DNA of 64,000 nucleotides, from positions 806,001 to 870,000 of the forward strand of contig NZ_JAFKCU010000002.1 in the NCBI RefSeq assembly GCF_017254845.1. Reading direction: 5' to 3'. The position numbers and the translations under genes were made by a program. A model generated the notes under the pieces. That model saw only the letters and a program-made list of their open reading frames with translations. It had not been told where the DNA came from and did no database searches. This document shows positions 38,132-43,709 of this stretch, piece by piece. The first letter of the stretch is position 1. Every line of letters begins with the position of its first letter. The DNA is from Algoriphagus pacificus (lineage in GTDB: Bacteria; Bacteroidota; Bacteroidia; Cytophagales; Cyclobacteriaceae).

Positions 38132-38668
38132 ATGGTTTCAAAGACAATTTTTTCTTCTCTCGAGAGGAGACCGATATTAATCAGTCTTACTGTACTATTC
38201 TTCGGATTCAATTTTTTATTAAAGCATTTTATTTCCGCTGAATATGCACTCGACCTAAAATTTGCATATTCTGTAGACCAAGCTTATCAGGCAATAGGAA
38301 GTTTATCAAAATCGGAATTGAATATGTACCAATTTGGAATTTGGGCATTGGATTTTCCTTATATGGTCGTTTACGGCCTTTTAGCCACTGGCTTGTTATT
38401 CAAATTATGGAGAAATAAGAAAGTGGTCTTTGTTCCTTTGTTTATCGTACTTTTTGATGCTTTGGAAAATATCCTGATTTCTCAATTGCTCGAAAACTTC
38501 CCCGAGCGCCACGAAGATTTAGCAATTTTCGCATCTGTTTTTACCACATTCAAATGGGTTTCTGTCTCCTTTTTAATTCTCCTTTTGCTTTGGGGCATAA
38601 CTAAATTCTACAAAAGAGAAAAACTCGAGCATACCAAAAGCTTAAAGCCTGAAATGAAAAATTATTAG
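38132..38668 (+). CDS. Hypothetical membrane protein, about four helices
   Basis: 178 residues with hydrophobic segments at about 15-32, 70-90, 97-113 and 137-160, and a basic C-terminal tail (YKREKLEHTKSLK). An acidic pair, DALEN, sits within the third segment. No family recognised. It lies 101 bases before the amidoligase operon on the same strand, so it may belong to it, but the gap is larger than those within the operon. Function unknown. Confidence 0.65.
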   Translation: MVSKTIFSSLERRPILISLTVLFFGFNFLLKHFISAEYALDLKFAYSVDQAYQAIGSLSKSELNMYQFGIWALDFPYMVVYGLLATGLLFKLWRNKKVVFVPLFIVLFDALENILISQLLENFPERHEDLAIFASVFTTFKWVSVSFLILLLLWGITKFYKREKLEHTKSLKPEMKNY

Positions 38669-38769: not shown

Positions 38770-39483
38770 ATGAAAGAAGAGTATTTTAAGTGGTTTTCAA
38801 ATTATCTCCAGCGAGATGTCGAGATGCTGGTCTTTGGTCACGCAGGATATCCGGTGGTCGTTTTTCCAACCTCTATGGGTTCTTTTCATGAAAACCGTGA
38901 CATGGGCTTGATAGAATCAGCTCGATGGTATATAGAGCAGGGTTTGATTCAGATTTATTGCCCTGAAAGCAACGACAAGCAAAGTTTTTACAATAAGCAG
39001 CTCCACCCGCATCAGCGCATTCAAAATCATGTGGCTTACGACAAGATGATCTGCCATGAATTAGTGGAGAGAATCAGGCTAAATACCAGAGTAGGCAAAG
39101 TTGTGACTGCTGGCTGTAGTTTCGGAGGATATCATGCTGCAAATTTTGCCTTTCGGCATCCAGGTTATGTCAGTCATATGTTTAGTATGTCTGGAGCCTT
39201 CAATATCCGCAACTTTATGGATGGATACGTCCACGATGATATCTATTACAATAGCCCATTAGAGTTCTTAGGAGCTCTGAATGACCATGAATTATGGAAT
39301 ATGGATATTGTTTTGGGGACTTCAAATTGGGATATCTGCTTCGATGCTAACCTTAAGATGCATGAGGCACTCAAATCGAAAGGCTTGAATCATTGGTTTG
39401 ATGTGAGGCAAAATCGAGAACATGACTGGGGAGTCTGGAAGGAGATGTTTCCTCATTATTTATCCAGGATCAAATTTGATTAA
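38770..39483 (+). CDS. Alpha/beta-hydrolase esterase, first gene of amidoligase operon
   Basis: 237 residues without signal peptide, of the esterase (EstA/PHB-depolymerase-like) family. The nucleophile elbow is AGCSFGGYHA (Ser117), the oxyanion region is VVFPTSMGSFHEN, and REHDWGVW near the C-terminus supplies the catalytic His. Its ATP-grasp neighbour starts 40 bases after the stop. In this context it could hydrolyse an ester or thioester intermediate or release the operon's product; the sequence does not decide. Confidence 0.85.
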   Translation: MKEEYFKWFSNYLQRDVEMLVFGHAGYPVVVFPTSMGSFHENRDMGLIESARWYIEQGLIQIYCPESNDKQSFYNKQLHPHQRIQNHVAYDKMICHELVERIRLNTRVGKVVTAGCSFGGYHAANFAFRHPGYVSHMFSMSGAFNIRNFMDGYVHDDIYYNSPLEFLGALNDHELWNMDIVLGTSNWDICFDANLKMHEALKSKGLNHWFDVRQNREHDWGVWKEMFPHYLSRIKFD

Positions 39484-39523
39484 CAAAGCAAAAATCTACT
39501 AATCACCTTTTTATATTAATAGC

Positions 39524-40480
39524 ATGAAAAAAATCGGAATACTTTTCGGAATGGAGGATACCTTTCCACAGGCATTTATTGATCGAGTAAATCAAAAGGC
39601 TGAAAAAGGAATTATGGCTGAGGCGGTGAAAATTGACAAGGTGATTCAAAATCATTTGTCAGAATATGCTGTCATCATAGATAGGATTTCGCAGGACGTC
39701 CCTTTTTACAGAGCTTATCTCAAAAATGCCGCACTGACGGGTACTGCAGTTATCAATAATCCGTTTTGGTGGAGTGCAGATGATAAGTTTTTCAATAATG
39801 CATTAGCAGATCAGTTGGGAGTGCCACTTCCTAAAACAGTGCTTTTACCTTCTTCTCAACATCCGACAGATACAACCAGCAAATCTTTCAGAAATCTTGC
39901 TGCTCCTTTGGATTGGAATGGGATGTTTGAATACATCGGTTTCCCGGCATACATGAAACCATATGCTGGCGGAGGTTGGAAAAATGTTTATCGACTAGAG
40001 AACAAAGAAGAGTTTTTTCAAAAACATCCTGAAACTGGTCAATTGGTAATGTTGCTTCAAGAAGAAATTGTTTTTGATGAATATTTCAGAGTGTATTGTT
40101 TGGGAGGTAAAGCTGTTCGAATCATGGAATACGAACCAAGAAATCCCCATCATTTAAGGTATGTGGTAGATAAGGCTCCGGCTTCTAAAAAGCTTTTGGC
40201 TACAGTAAAAGATTATACTATCAAGCTTTGCAAAGGACTTGGCTATGATTTCAACACGGTGGAATTTGCTGTAAGAGATGGAATTCCTTACGCTATTGAT
40301 TTTGGGAACCCGGCTCCCGATGCCGACATTAATTCTGTTGGGCAAGCAAATTTTGACTGGGTAGTAGAAGAGGCCGCAAAAATGGCGATCAGTTATGCTA
40401 AAGCTCAAAAGCCTGGGAAAATGAATTTGACCTGGGGAACATTTATCCGGGATGCAGCTTCCACCGCCAAACGTTTTTAA
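39524..40480 (+). CDS. ATP-grasp ligase (RimK/Ddl-like)
   Basis: 318 residues. The ATP-grasp fold is shown by Lys145 in YIGFPAYMKPYAGGGWKN (nucleotide-binding Lys and glycine loop), QEEIVFDEYFRVYCLGG, and the metal-binding set Glu247, Asp259 and Asn262 in FNTVEFAV / YAIDFGNPAPD. These enzymes activate a carboxylate as acyl phosphate and join it to an amine or thiol. The N-terminal 100 residues form the pre-ATP-grasp domain. No acceptor can be named. Second gene of the five-gene operon; the next starts 17 bases later. Confidence 0.88.
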   Translation: MKKIGILFGMEDTFPQAFIDRVNQKAEKGIMAEAVKIDKVIQNHLSEYAVIIDRISQDVPFYRAYLKNAALTGTAVINNPFWWSADDKFFNNALADQLGVPLPKTVLLPSSQHPTDTTSKSFRNLAAPLDWNGMFEYIGFPAYMKPYAGGGWKNVYRLENKEEFFQKHPETGQLVMLLQEEIVFDEYFRVYCLGGKAVRIMEYEPRNPHHLRYVVDKAPASKKLLATVKDYTIKLCKGLGYDFNTVEFAVRDGIPYAIDFGNPAPDADINSVGQANFDWVVEEAAKMAISYAKAQKPGKMNLTWGTFIRDAASTAKRF

Positions 40481-40497
40481 CACTTAAAAGGGATTTC

Positions 40498-41625
40498 ATG
40501 AAAGAGGGAGTAAAAAGGTTGCCCAAATTCACCTTGGGTGTTGAAGAGGAATATCAGATCATAGATCCAAAAACAAGGGATCTTAGATCACACATGTCCA
40601 AGATTGTGGAAGGGGGAAAAATCCATTTGAGGGAACAGGTGAAAGCTGAGATGCATCAATCTGTGGTGGAAGTAGGTACGAATGTCTGTGAAAATATCTC
40701 TCAAGCTAGAAGAGAAGTTTCTTTTTTAAGAGGTAAAATTTTCGAACTGGCGCAAAAACAGGATTTAATCGTCGGTGCTGCAGGGACACACCCATTTTCT
40801 AAATGGCAGGATCAAGAAATTACTGATGATACCCGCTATCATGAGATTGTAAACGAATTGAAAGACATCGCAAGATCAAATTTGATTTTCGGGCTCCACG
40901 TTCATGTGGGGATTGATAATCGGGATATTGCTTTGCAATTGATGAATCAGGCTTGTTATTTCTTGCCTCACATTTATGCTTTGTCTACCAACTCACCTTT
41001 TTGGGAAGGTAGAAATACTGGTTTTAAGGCTTTTAGGGCAAAGGTTTTTGCGAAATTTCCAAGAACCGGATTACCAGAATATTTTGATTCAGTACAGTCT
41101 TACGACAACTTTCTTGAGATTTTAGTCAAAACGAACTGTATCGATAATCCTAAAAAAATCTGGTGGGATTTGAGGATGCACCCATTCTTTAGCACTATTG
41201 AGTTTCGGATTTGTGACATGTGCCTCACAGTGGACGAAACAATTTGTATCACCGCGTTGATCCAAGCTGTAGTTGCTAAGCTTTATAAACTCTTGACAAG
41301 TAATACAAGCTTCAATATTTATCGGATCGCTTTAATCAGAGAGAATAAATTTAGGGCCGCAAGAAATGGAATAGACGGGCAATTGATCGATTTCGGCAAA
41401 AAGACCGAAGTCCCTACCCGAGAGTTGATTCACGAATTATTAGATTTTATAGATGATGTGGTTGATGAATTGGAAAGCCGAGATGAAATCAACTATGTAC
41501 ATGAAATCCTCAAGAAAGGAACAGGAGCAGACCAACAGTTGGCAGTTTTTGAAGAAACTAAAGATCTGATTAAAGTCGTGGATTTTATTACCGATAAGTT
41601 TACGCAAGGGATTCGTACCCATTGA
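40498..41625 (+). CDS. GCS2-type carboxylate-amine ligase (YbdK-like)
   Basis: 375 residues of the glutamate-cysteine ligase type 2 fold. The signature FTLGVEEEYQIID (11-23) carries the metal-binding glutamates, FGLHVHVGI is the His-x-His strand, and DLRMHPFFSTIEFRICDMC matches the Arg-Glu pair used for the acceptor. Such enzymes make amide bonds between a carboxylate and an amine with ATP; many have no known product. Third gene of the operon; the next (GTG) start is 33 bases on. Confidence 0.92.
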   Translation: MKEGVKRLPKFTLGVEEEYQIIDPKTRDLRSHMSKIVEGGKIHLREQVKAEMHQSVVEVGTNVCENISQARREVSFLRGKIFELAQKQDLIVGAAGTHPFSKWQDQEITDDTRYHEIVNELKDIARSNLIFGLHVHVGIDNRDIALQLMNQACYFLPHIYALSTNSPFWEGRNTGFKAFRAKVFAKFPRTGLPEYFDSVQSYDNFLEILVKTNCIDNPKKIWWDLRMHPFFSTIEFRICDMCLTVDETICITALIQAVVAKLYKLLTSNTSFNIYRIALIRENKFRAARNGIDGQLIDFGKKTEVPTRELIHELLDFIDDVVDELESRDEINYVHEILKKGTGADQQLAVFEETKDLIKVVDFITDKFTQGIRTH

Positions 41626-41658
41626 TTAACTTTGCATCAAATACAAAGAAAGAGAACC

Positions 41659-42492
41659 GTGCGTAAGAAAAAGATCAATCTGGCGATTTTGGATATGTAT
41701 GATGGCGAGGCCAACCAAGGCATGCGCTGCATCAAAGATATAGTATCCAGATTTTCGGATCAGATTACCTATAGAGTATACGATGTGAGGGGTAAGGCAG
41801 AAATCCCTGAAATCCATGATTACGATTTATATATTTCCACTGGAGGCCCTGGAGATCCGCTGGAAGGAAATGGAAACTGGGATTTGAAGTACTTTGATCT
41901 ATTGGATCAAATCTGGATTTGGAATCAAAATCACTCACACAAAAAACACATTCTATTGATTTGCCATTCTTTCCAAATGGCTTGTCGCCATTTTGGGCTT
42001 GGTCAATTGAGCAAAAGAAAGTCAACTTCTTTTGGTGTGATGTCTATTCACAAGACAGCAGAAGGTATGAATGATCCCTTGTTTTTGGGATTAGATAATC
42101 CATTTTGGGCAGTTGATTCCAGAGATTACCAAGTCTTGCAGCCTAACCAGAAGAAATTCAATTTATTGGGAGCTAAAATTATTGCGTTGGAAAAAATTCG
42201 AACTCATGTTGAATACGAGCGCGCGATTATGGCAATTCGTTTTTCCGATGAGATTATCGGAACCCAATTTCACCCTGAAGCAGATCCAGTAAGTTTTCTG
42301 GCACATTTGAAAAAGCAGGAAGTTCGGGATAAAATCATCGCCTCTAAGGGGAAGACAAAGTTTAGAGCCATGCTTGAGCATCTGGTTGATGAAAATAAGA
42401 TCTATAAGACAAATGAGACTTTGATTCCTAACTTTTTGGAGCAATCAATTCGTAAGATCAAGTCGGCAAAAACACCTTCCCTTATCCTATAA
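41659..42492 (+). CDS. Class I glutamine amidotransferase (GATase1)
   Basis: 277 residues from the GTG at 41659 (MRKKKINLAILDM); an earlier TTG is out of keeping with the family start. The triad is visible: Cys102 in LLICHSFQ, His205 and Glu207 in TQFHPEADP. An oxyanion-type STGGPGDP strand lies at about 60-67. The nucleophile elbow is ICHSF where the usual form is GxCxG. The enzyme would hydrolyse glutamine to supply ammonia, or cleave a gamma-glutamyl bond. A C-terminal extension of about 60 residues follows the catalytic domain. It is separated from the last gene by three bases. Confidence 0.85.
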   Translation: MRKKKINLAILDMYDGEANQGMRCIKDIVSRFSDQITYRVYDVRGKAEIPEIHDYDLYISTGGPGDPLEGNGNWDLKYFDLLDQIWIWNQNHSHKKHILLICHSFQMACRHFGLGQLSKRKSTSFGVMSIHKTAEGMNDPLFLGLDNPFWAVDSRDYQVLQPNQKKFNLLGAKIIALEKIRTHVEYERAIMAIRFSDEIIGTQFHPEADPVSFLAHLKKQEVRDKIIASKGKTKFRAMLEHLVDENKIYKTNETLIPNFLEQSIRKIKSAKTPSLIL

Positions 42493-42495
42493 ATT

Positions 42496-43686
42496 ATGAT
42501 TTCTGACCTTCGAGACGATTTTAATGCGAGCTTTTCAGCAGAAAAGTACGAGGAGTTCTTGAAGGATATAGCTAGTGATTTTGGCTTTGCACCTACGTTT
42601 AGAATTGCAGAAACGCCTTTTTTTATTCCTGATGAGCTTAAAGATAAAATTCTTGAAGCTTGCGATTCGGTAATTGAATTTGTGATGAGGCCTGATTTCA
42701 AAGAAATCACCCAGCGGGCTATAGATTTGAATACCTCAGTGCCAAATGAGGATGAGCATACCCAATTTCTGGCCATTGATTTTGGGATTTGTGAGGAGGA
42801 TGGACAAATCATTCCCAAGCTGATTGAAGTTCAAGGTTTTCCTTCCGTCTTTAATTTCCAATTTAATCTCTTCAAGAAATTCAGGAAGCATTATCCTCTT
42901 TTAGAGAATTCCAGTCCTTATTTGGATGGAATAGACGATGTAGCCTATTTAGTGCTTTTGAGAAAAGTAATCCAAGGTAGGCATAGTCCCGAAGAGGTGG
43001 TTCTTTTAGAAATTGAACCTGCAAAACAGAATACAAAAATTGATTTTCATTACTGTCAGCATGACTTGGGTATTCCCATTGTCTGCGTGACGGATGTGGA
43101 AAAGGAAGACAATAAACTTTTTTACAAGGATGATTCCGGTAAGAAAATTCAAATCAAACGAATCTACAACCGAGTAATTTTTGATGAATTGGATATGCGA
43201 CCTGATCTGAAATTAAATTTTAGTTTTCAGGATGATTTAAATGTGGAGTGGGCAGGGCACCCAAATTGGTATACCCGGATTTCAAAATTTATTTTGCCTT
43301 ATCTGGAAGGCCCTTATTTTATTGAGAGCAAACTTTTAAGTGAAATATCTGAGATTCCAGAAGACTTGGAAAATTATGTTTTAAAACCTTTGTTTTCCTT
43401 TTCCGGAAGCGGTGTTAAATTCCATGTGACTAAGGAGGATATCGCAGAAGTGAAGGAAAAAGATTTGTTTATTCTTCAAAAGAAAGTGCATTATGCTCCC
43501 GTGATCAAATCGCCAAACGGTCAAGTAAAAGTAGAAGTTAGAATATTGGCCCTTTGGCCTGAAGGTGATGCTAGACCTACCATTGTTGGCAACTTGTCCC
43601 GTTTAAGTAGGGGAGAAATGATAGGAGTAAAGTTTAATAAGGACAAGGATTGGGTTGGCGGATCCATCGGATTGTTCCAAAAGTAA
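42496..43686 (+). CDS. ATP-grasp-fold protein, last gene of amidoligase operon
   Basis: 396 residues without signal peptide. The C-terminal half resembles an ATP-grasp of the circularly permuted/glutathionylspermidine-synthase-like kind: ENYVLKPLFSFSGSGVKF (Lys plus glycine loop), LFILQKKVHYAPVI, VEVRILALWPEG and SRLSRGEMIGVKFN. In the N-terminal half IPKLIEVQGFPSVF is reminiscent of the acidic metal-binding strand. The identification is from motif pattern only. It would be the second ligase of the pathway. A bidirectional terminator follows directly. Confidence 0.65.
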   Translation: MISDLRDDFNASFSAEKYEEFLKDIASDFGFAPTFRIAETPFFIPDELKDKILEACDSVIEFVMRPDFKEITQRAIDLNTSVPNEDEHTQFLAIDFGICEEDGQIIPKLIEVQGFPSVFNFQFNLFKKFRKHYPLLENSSPYLDGIDDVAYLVLLRKVIQGRHSPEEVVLLEIEPAKQNTKIDFHYCQHDLGIPIVCVTDVEKEDNKLFYKDDSGKKIQIKRIYNRVIFDELDMRPDLKLNFSFQDDLNVEWAGHPNWYTRISKFILPYLEGPYFIESKLLSEISEIPEDLENYVLKPLFSFSGSGVKFHVTKEDIAEVKEKDLFILQKKVHYAPVIKSPNGQVKVEVRILALWPEGDARPTIVGNLSRLSRGEMIGVKFNKDKDWVGGSIGLFQK

Positions 43687-43709
43687 AAAAGCTGGTTTTA
43701 CCAGCTTTT
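43687..43709. terminator. Bidirectional terminator between amidoligase operon and pyrE
   Basis: AAAAGCTGGT (43687-43696) pairs with ACCAGCTTTT (43700-43709) over TTT, with A residues on one side and T on the other. It can end the plus-strand amidoligase operon and the minus-strand pyrE. Confidence 0.85.

Follow-up and report, generated by a model that had tools for sequence, protein, structure and literature searches.

A widespread Bacteroidota gene set combining three predicted amide-forming ligases with two hydrolase-like enzymes

The locus and the systems closest to it

Operons that link ligases of different folds have been seen in multiple instances, as stated in PMC4431377, which cites Iyer et al. 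(2009). The operon considered here, genes A to E of Algoriphagus pacificus, lies in a 64,000-nucleotide stretch of DNA (the window) and is, in our reading, an operon of this known kind: it encodes three ligases with amide-forming folds and two hydrolase-like enzymes, the activities being predicted from family score for C and from structure for B and E. We consider it reasonably probable that A to E form a single pathway making a small glutamyl-type peptide or amide, with neither the ribosome nor a nonribosomal peptide synthetase involved. What the set shares with the amidoligase clusters surveyed by Iyer et al. (2009, Mol Biosyst), as relayed in PMC4431377, is the linkage of ligases with unrelated folds; it differs in that E scores above no Pfam or NCBIfam cut-off.

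Comparable ligases are also known from individual pathways. Glutathione synthesis combines a GCS2-type ligase with a eukaryotic-type glutathione synthetase, and C and E share these folds; however, the A to E set adds a third ligase, B, and the hydrolase-like A and D, the identity of E to its 26 Foldseek matches at E <=0.001 is 9-16%, and the genome carries separate glutathione genes. With regard to GspS and the Escherichia coli proteins YgiC and YjfC, the GSP_synth match of E reaches 13.1 bits against a cut-off of 29.3; the amidase of GspS, moreover, has a different fold and is fused to the synthetase. Cp1B of fungal E-64 biosynthesis is 11% identical to E and has different partner genes. In the literature covered by our search, which included PMC4431377, PMC8939145 and PMC12568646 but did not extend to the 2009 survey or to most subscription journals, we found no description of this gene set, and we do not claim its absence from print. 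The features of the locus are as follows:

38770..39483, + strand: gene A, alpha/beta-hydrolase esterase (237 aa; Esterase, PF00756)
39524..40480, + strand: gene B, predicted classical ATP-grasp ligase (318 aa; by predicted structure, with a sub-threshold RimK-type match)
40498..41625, + strand: gene C, GCS2/YbdK-type carboxylate-amine ligase (375 aa; PF04107 and NF010039)
41659..42492, + strand: gene D, class I glutamine amidotransferase (GATase)-fold protein (277 aa counted from GTG 41659; PF00117)
42496..43686, + strand: gene E, predicted circularly permuted ATP-grasp ligase of the glutathione synthetase/GspS/YgiC fold (396 aa; by predicted structure)
43687..43709, no strand: symmetric hairpin, terminator-like, 3' of the E stop codon (z -3.7)

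An earlier note, made from the DNA letters alone, had placed five genes on one strand here, with gaps of 40, 17, 33 and 3 bases (A-B, B-C, C-D and D-E) and a terminator right after the last gene. All five open reading frames indeed lie on the + strand at those places, and the gaps are correct provided that D begins at GTG 41659, a start that agrees with the lengths of many D relatives; the listed frame opens upstream, at TTG 41632 (41632-42492). The terminator corresponds to a perfect hairpin with a 10-bp stem (-12.2 kcal/mol) that separates E from a convergent orotate phosphoribosyltransferase gene and is not among the sites listed by a simple terminator scan.

Folds and conserved residues of the five proteins

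Three of the proteins are placed by profile scores. A matches PF00756 at 28.2 bits (cut-off 22) and keeps S117, D188, D211 and H218 in 98% or more of the 85 sequences aligned, that of the window included; its catalytic triad would be drawn from these four residues. C is a member of the YbdK/GCS2 family, with 195.4 bits against PF04107 (cut-off 21) and 527.7 bits against the 'carboxylate-amine ligase' model NF010039 (cut-off 371), and it matches the YbdK structure 1r8g at E 2e-51. The score of D against PF00117 (35.8 bits, cut-off 22.8) together with its Cys-His-Glu residues assigns it to the class I GATase fold; its GGPG motif, C102, Q106, H205 and E207 are invariant in all 17 aligned sequences.

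B falls outside the RimK family as defined by TIGR00768 (33.8 bits, cut-off 143.4). Its AF2 model (pLDDT 79.9) supports an ATP-grasp fold, with Foldseek matches to PsnB, Ddl and RimK and with K145, E247, D259 and N262 conserved. That PsnB, a graspetide ligase, heads these matches raises the thought of a graspetide cluster, i.e. one for a ribosomally synthesized and post-translationally modified peptide, in which B would crosslink a ribosomal precursor peptide. We regard this as exceedingly improbable: Ddl and RimK score nearly equal to PsnB (identities of 11-17% among the matches shown), the gaps within the operon are too small for a precursor gene (an observation that covers the interior of the operon but not short open reading frames in its flanks), and in many genomes B lies apart from the other members.

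The match of E to CP_ATPgrasp_1 (18.0 bits, cut-off 23.1) is, like that to GSP_synth, below the Pfam gathering cut-off. Plain sequence searches of the PDB with E, B and D returned nothing useful, and in profile searches with E the one sensible match was YgiC (E 0.082 and 0.012). The model of E matches, over its full length, the circularly permuted ATP-grasp of glutathione synthetase, glutathionylspermidine synthetase (GspS) and YgiC, with 26 Foldseek matches at E <=0.001. YgiC and YjfC stand at the top of its VIA list and GspS close behind, an order that would suit the conjugation of polyamines, in which C and E would load a polyamine with glutamyl or peptidyl groups that D would take off again, in analogy to PuuA/PuuD and to glutathionylspermidine synthetase/amidase. 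YgiC and YjfC are peptide-spermidine ligases by the title of a paper cited in PMC12568646. However, glutathione synthetases follow within 1-2 Z of these two proteins, and given this near-tie the fold cannot choose between an amino acid and a polyamine. Furthermore, no polyamine gene occurs among the window neighbours searched, the clusters of the wider neighbourhoods being mostly left unannotated. We hence judge polyamine conjugation unlikely. More generally, since the structural kin of E accept amino acids or polyamines, the folds alone do not give the substrates.

A GCS2 protein alongside a glutathione-synthetase-like fold is also the logic of glutathione synthesis, and A to E might simply be a pathway for glutathione or another known thiol. 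This is very improbable in our estimation. Searches of Pfam and NCBIfam up to E = 1 gave no match of E to a glutathione synthetase model, and contig C38 of the same genome encodes a glutathione synthase (392.5 bits, equivalog cut-off 272) with a GCS2 protein (118.7 bits, cut-off 21) 1.1 kb downstream of the synthase gene. The genome also encodes BshC of bacillithiol synthesis (419.5 bits). Because genes for both thiols sit elsewhere in the genome and would make them, if they are made at all, glutathione and bacillithiol are unlikely products of A to E, and we rejected the set as the genome's glutathione ligases or bacillithiol pathway. Linked alpha-E, transglutaminase or Anbu genes are the marks of another arrangement, the COG2308/alpha-E/Anbu peptide-tagging system; none was seen among the nine window proteins searched, the clusters of the wider neighbourhoods having been annotated selectively.

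Taken together, these results bear out the gene families given in the earlier note: A, C and D by scores above cut-off, B as an ATP-grasp protein by predicted structure, and the last gene, which it had called a second ATP-grasp-like protein, as a circularly permuted ATP-grasp in the structural model. Its two or three amide-forming activities beside an ammonia- or gamma-glutamyl-handling enzyme become three ligase folds, supported by score for C and by predicted structure for B and E. Orthology to an enzyme of a known unrelated pathway, a prospect it had raised, was not seen: no protein passes such a cut-off, and the model passed by C, NF010039, is generic. The fold of E, the separate glutathione and bacillithiol genes, and the phylum-wide co-occurrence and two replacements described below are additions to that note.

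Co-occurrence and replacement across the Bacteroidota

We searched 296 evenly drawn Bacteroidota genomes for B, C, D and E, with E-value thresholds of 1e-3 for E, 1e-20 for B and C, and 1e-10 for D. E is present in 92 genomes, B in 108, C in 103 and D in 70. B accompanies E in 89 genomes and C does so in 87; all three occur together in 84, so that the genes are conserved together in Bacteroidota, as the note's author had suggested checking. The full set of presence patterns is BCDE in 50 genomes, BCE in 34, C only in 9, BD in 8, BCD in 7, B only in 4, BDE in 4, CE in 2, BE and CDE in one each, and none of the four in 176. At the level of genera, B is found in 63 of 63 with E, and Fisher tests of B with E give 3e-52 over genomes and 3e-26 over 139 genera, relatedness being ignored. 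The trait also varies within genus g12, apparently Flavobacterium: E is present in three of its listed genomes, and B, C, D and E are all absent in five. Among viral contigs there were 13 pattern matches to E homologues, none of which was confirmed, and tblastn searches of plasmids with B and E gave no match.

We then considered linkage, defined as another member on the strand of E within 8 kb, in 92 E neighbourhoods from 91 genomes other than that of the window (one has E split over two contigs); some of these stop at contig ends. All five genes are present in 23, a subset in 33 and E alone in 36, and in the 56 neighbourhoods with another member the order is always A-B-C-D-E. When E stands alone, B and C are both found elsewhere in 31 of 35 genomes (split-E genome excluded). 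That B, C and E are retained together without linkage speaks more strongly for a shared pathway than does their grouping in an operon. In a separate set of named loci, comprising the best 80 of 584 confirmed E-encoding loci and hence weighted to near kin, A, B, C and D all accompany E in 64; the closest named E in this set is that of A. boseongensis (76% identity).

In fifteen genomes B and D occur but E does not, and there B adjoins a ligase-like protein of about 450 aa, here x450. At an identity of at least 55%, x450 occurs in 15 of the 296 genomes, exactly the B+D-without-E set, and in 0 of the 92 E genomes. As x450 was first spotted in those E-less genomes themselves, the real test lies in the 92 genomes with E, from which it is absent. 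A phylum-wide search found it in 16 of 296 genomes, namely the same 15 and, as a 36% relative, genome G137. The one member tested falls below the Pfam gathering cut-offs of CP_ATPgrasp_2 (25.8 vs 32 bits) and CP_ATPgrasp_1 (20.3 vs 23.1 bits); K355, E135 and N137 do not vary among the nine sequences aligned. B is joined by E or x450 in 104 of 108 genomes, the other four holding just 34-43% relatives of B, and C accompanies E in 87 of 92 genomes and x450 in 7 of 15. Thus, the constant core is B plus either E or x450. Nine of the 15 E-less genomes (L204, L205, L207-L212, L217) have a second esterase of about 313 aa (PF00756 in the L209 copy) 3' of D.

D, too, has a candidate substitute. At five loci the position between C and E is taken by a relative of the M29 peptidases (L057, whose copy was annotated, L060, L072, L094 and L096). 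At an identity of at least 59% it is present in six of 296 genomes, all with E and all without D, being unlinked in the sixth (G208); the chance of this exclusion within the E genomes is 0.003, with relatedness ignored. Another 29 genomes hold distant M29 proteins alone (<=31% identity). Because a peptidase occupies its slot, D is read as a hydrolase. An alternative is that D is a glutaminase supplying E with ammonia, in the manner of CarA and CarB, with a product ending in a primary amide. Its residues are intact throughout the 17 sequences (GGPG, Cys102, Gln106, His205, Glu207), and it is the nearest A-D gene before E in 39 of 39 neighbourhoods in which the two share a strand within 8 kb. 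D is further restricted to genomes with E or x450 (70/70), coming after x450 in 14 of the 15 E-less genomes (in G290 it lies on another contig). However, D is missing from 37 of 92 E genomes, its slot is filled by the M29 relative in the five loci, in G292 it lies 1.1 kb upstream of E but on the other strand, and the structural kin of E presumably add amino acids or polyamines, not ammonia. Ammonia feeding is therefore a possible but rather doubtful role for D.

Several other genes recur near members of the set. An Amidohydro_3-type gene (annotated in the L097 copy) immediately precedes E in 11 genomes of families f24 and f27 in which D was not found (L097, L105-L108, L113, L115, L117-L120); being confined to two families, it was rejected as a pathway member. 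So was a histidine ammonia-lyase gene, confined to family f24, that lies downstream of B on the same strand (L225, L226, L228-L232, L239); the L225 copy scores above the hutH cut-off and has Ser-Ser-Gly in place of the usual Ala-Ser-Gly. A third ATP-grasp protein of about 400 aa (ATP-grasp_4 in the L042 copy) is near the operon in 37 of the 235 loci L031-L265, some of which repeat a genome; it recurs in Flavobacterium and others, and near the E-less variant too (e.g. L042:6702-7898, L084:3828-5036, L204, L207 and L212). In genus g10, cyanophycin synthetase and cyanophycinase genes are found downstream of E in four of five neighbourhoods (L084, L087, L091, L092), above NCBIfam cut-offs for the L084 copies and by similarity for the others, the fifth (L093) being a short contig. 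At L223 (G160) the context is different, with a 43-44% relative of B directly before two genes which we take to be squalene/phytoene-synthase-like. In the window itself, a small gene upstream of the operon on the same strand (38132-38668) matches no Pfam or NCBIfam model and is present in 9 of 10 loci titled Algoriphagus. A promoter scan gave 13 sites against 12.6 in shuffles, i.e. no excess, and the Bacteroidetes-type promoter pattern gave 6 sites against 4.46 expected, none of them before gene A.

A proposed pathway and its implications

The layout, a core of B and E or x450 together with C, is, as far as can be judged from sequence, that of a stepwise non-ribosomal ligation pathway, and the tendency of the genes to be kept, lost or replaced as a set points to a common small peptide-like product. 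In the order of reactions that we infer, C would link an amine to a glutamate-like acid through the carboxylate of the latter, B would make a second amide bond and E would make the last, adding an amino acid or an amine. D would most likely cut an amide of the intermediate or product (gamma-glutamyl or terminal residue), ammonia supply to E being the second choice, while A may hydrolyse an ester or acyl group.

A number of observations weigh against this proposal. The three ligases are not always needed, since C is absent from five of 92 E genomes (G037, G064, G158, G178, G212) and from 8 of 15 x450 genomes; C also occurs alone in 9 genomes. B was undetected at E 1e-20 in three E genomes (G144, G154, G220), and two Flavobacterium loci, L171 and L177 (the latter from Flavobacterium sp. 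7A), show C-D-E but neither A nor B within the stretch retrieved. The exchange of E for x450 is blurred by G137, which has E as well as the 36% x450 relative, and aligning the profiles of E and x450 with hhalign gave no significant result (probability 0.75%, E 0.075), so that this comparison does not establish their homology. The M29 relative is likewise missing in 28 of the 34 genomes that have all three ligases but lack D, and, as D keeps its GGPG and Cys...Gln motifs, ammonia supply fits as well as hydrolysis. Finally, the co-occurrence tests take no account of relatedness.

We know of no prior description of the co-occurrence or of the two replacements, which together make the pathway directly testable; the replacements also reveal which enzyme roles are fixed. 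As a tentative generalization, the product might be a widespread small peptide of the Bacteroidota made by a glutathione-like logic, with a glutamyl ligase, a glutathione-synthetase-like ligase and a third ligase. It would be a largely all-or-none trait in about one third of the sampled genomes, in which the last-step ligases (E or x450) and the hydrolases (D or M29) are interchangeable. The presence and absence of the whole set inside genus g12 offer natural comparison pairs for metabolomics. If the proposal is true, a large share of the Bacteroidota would share an amide metabolite for which we could find no name.

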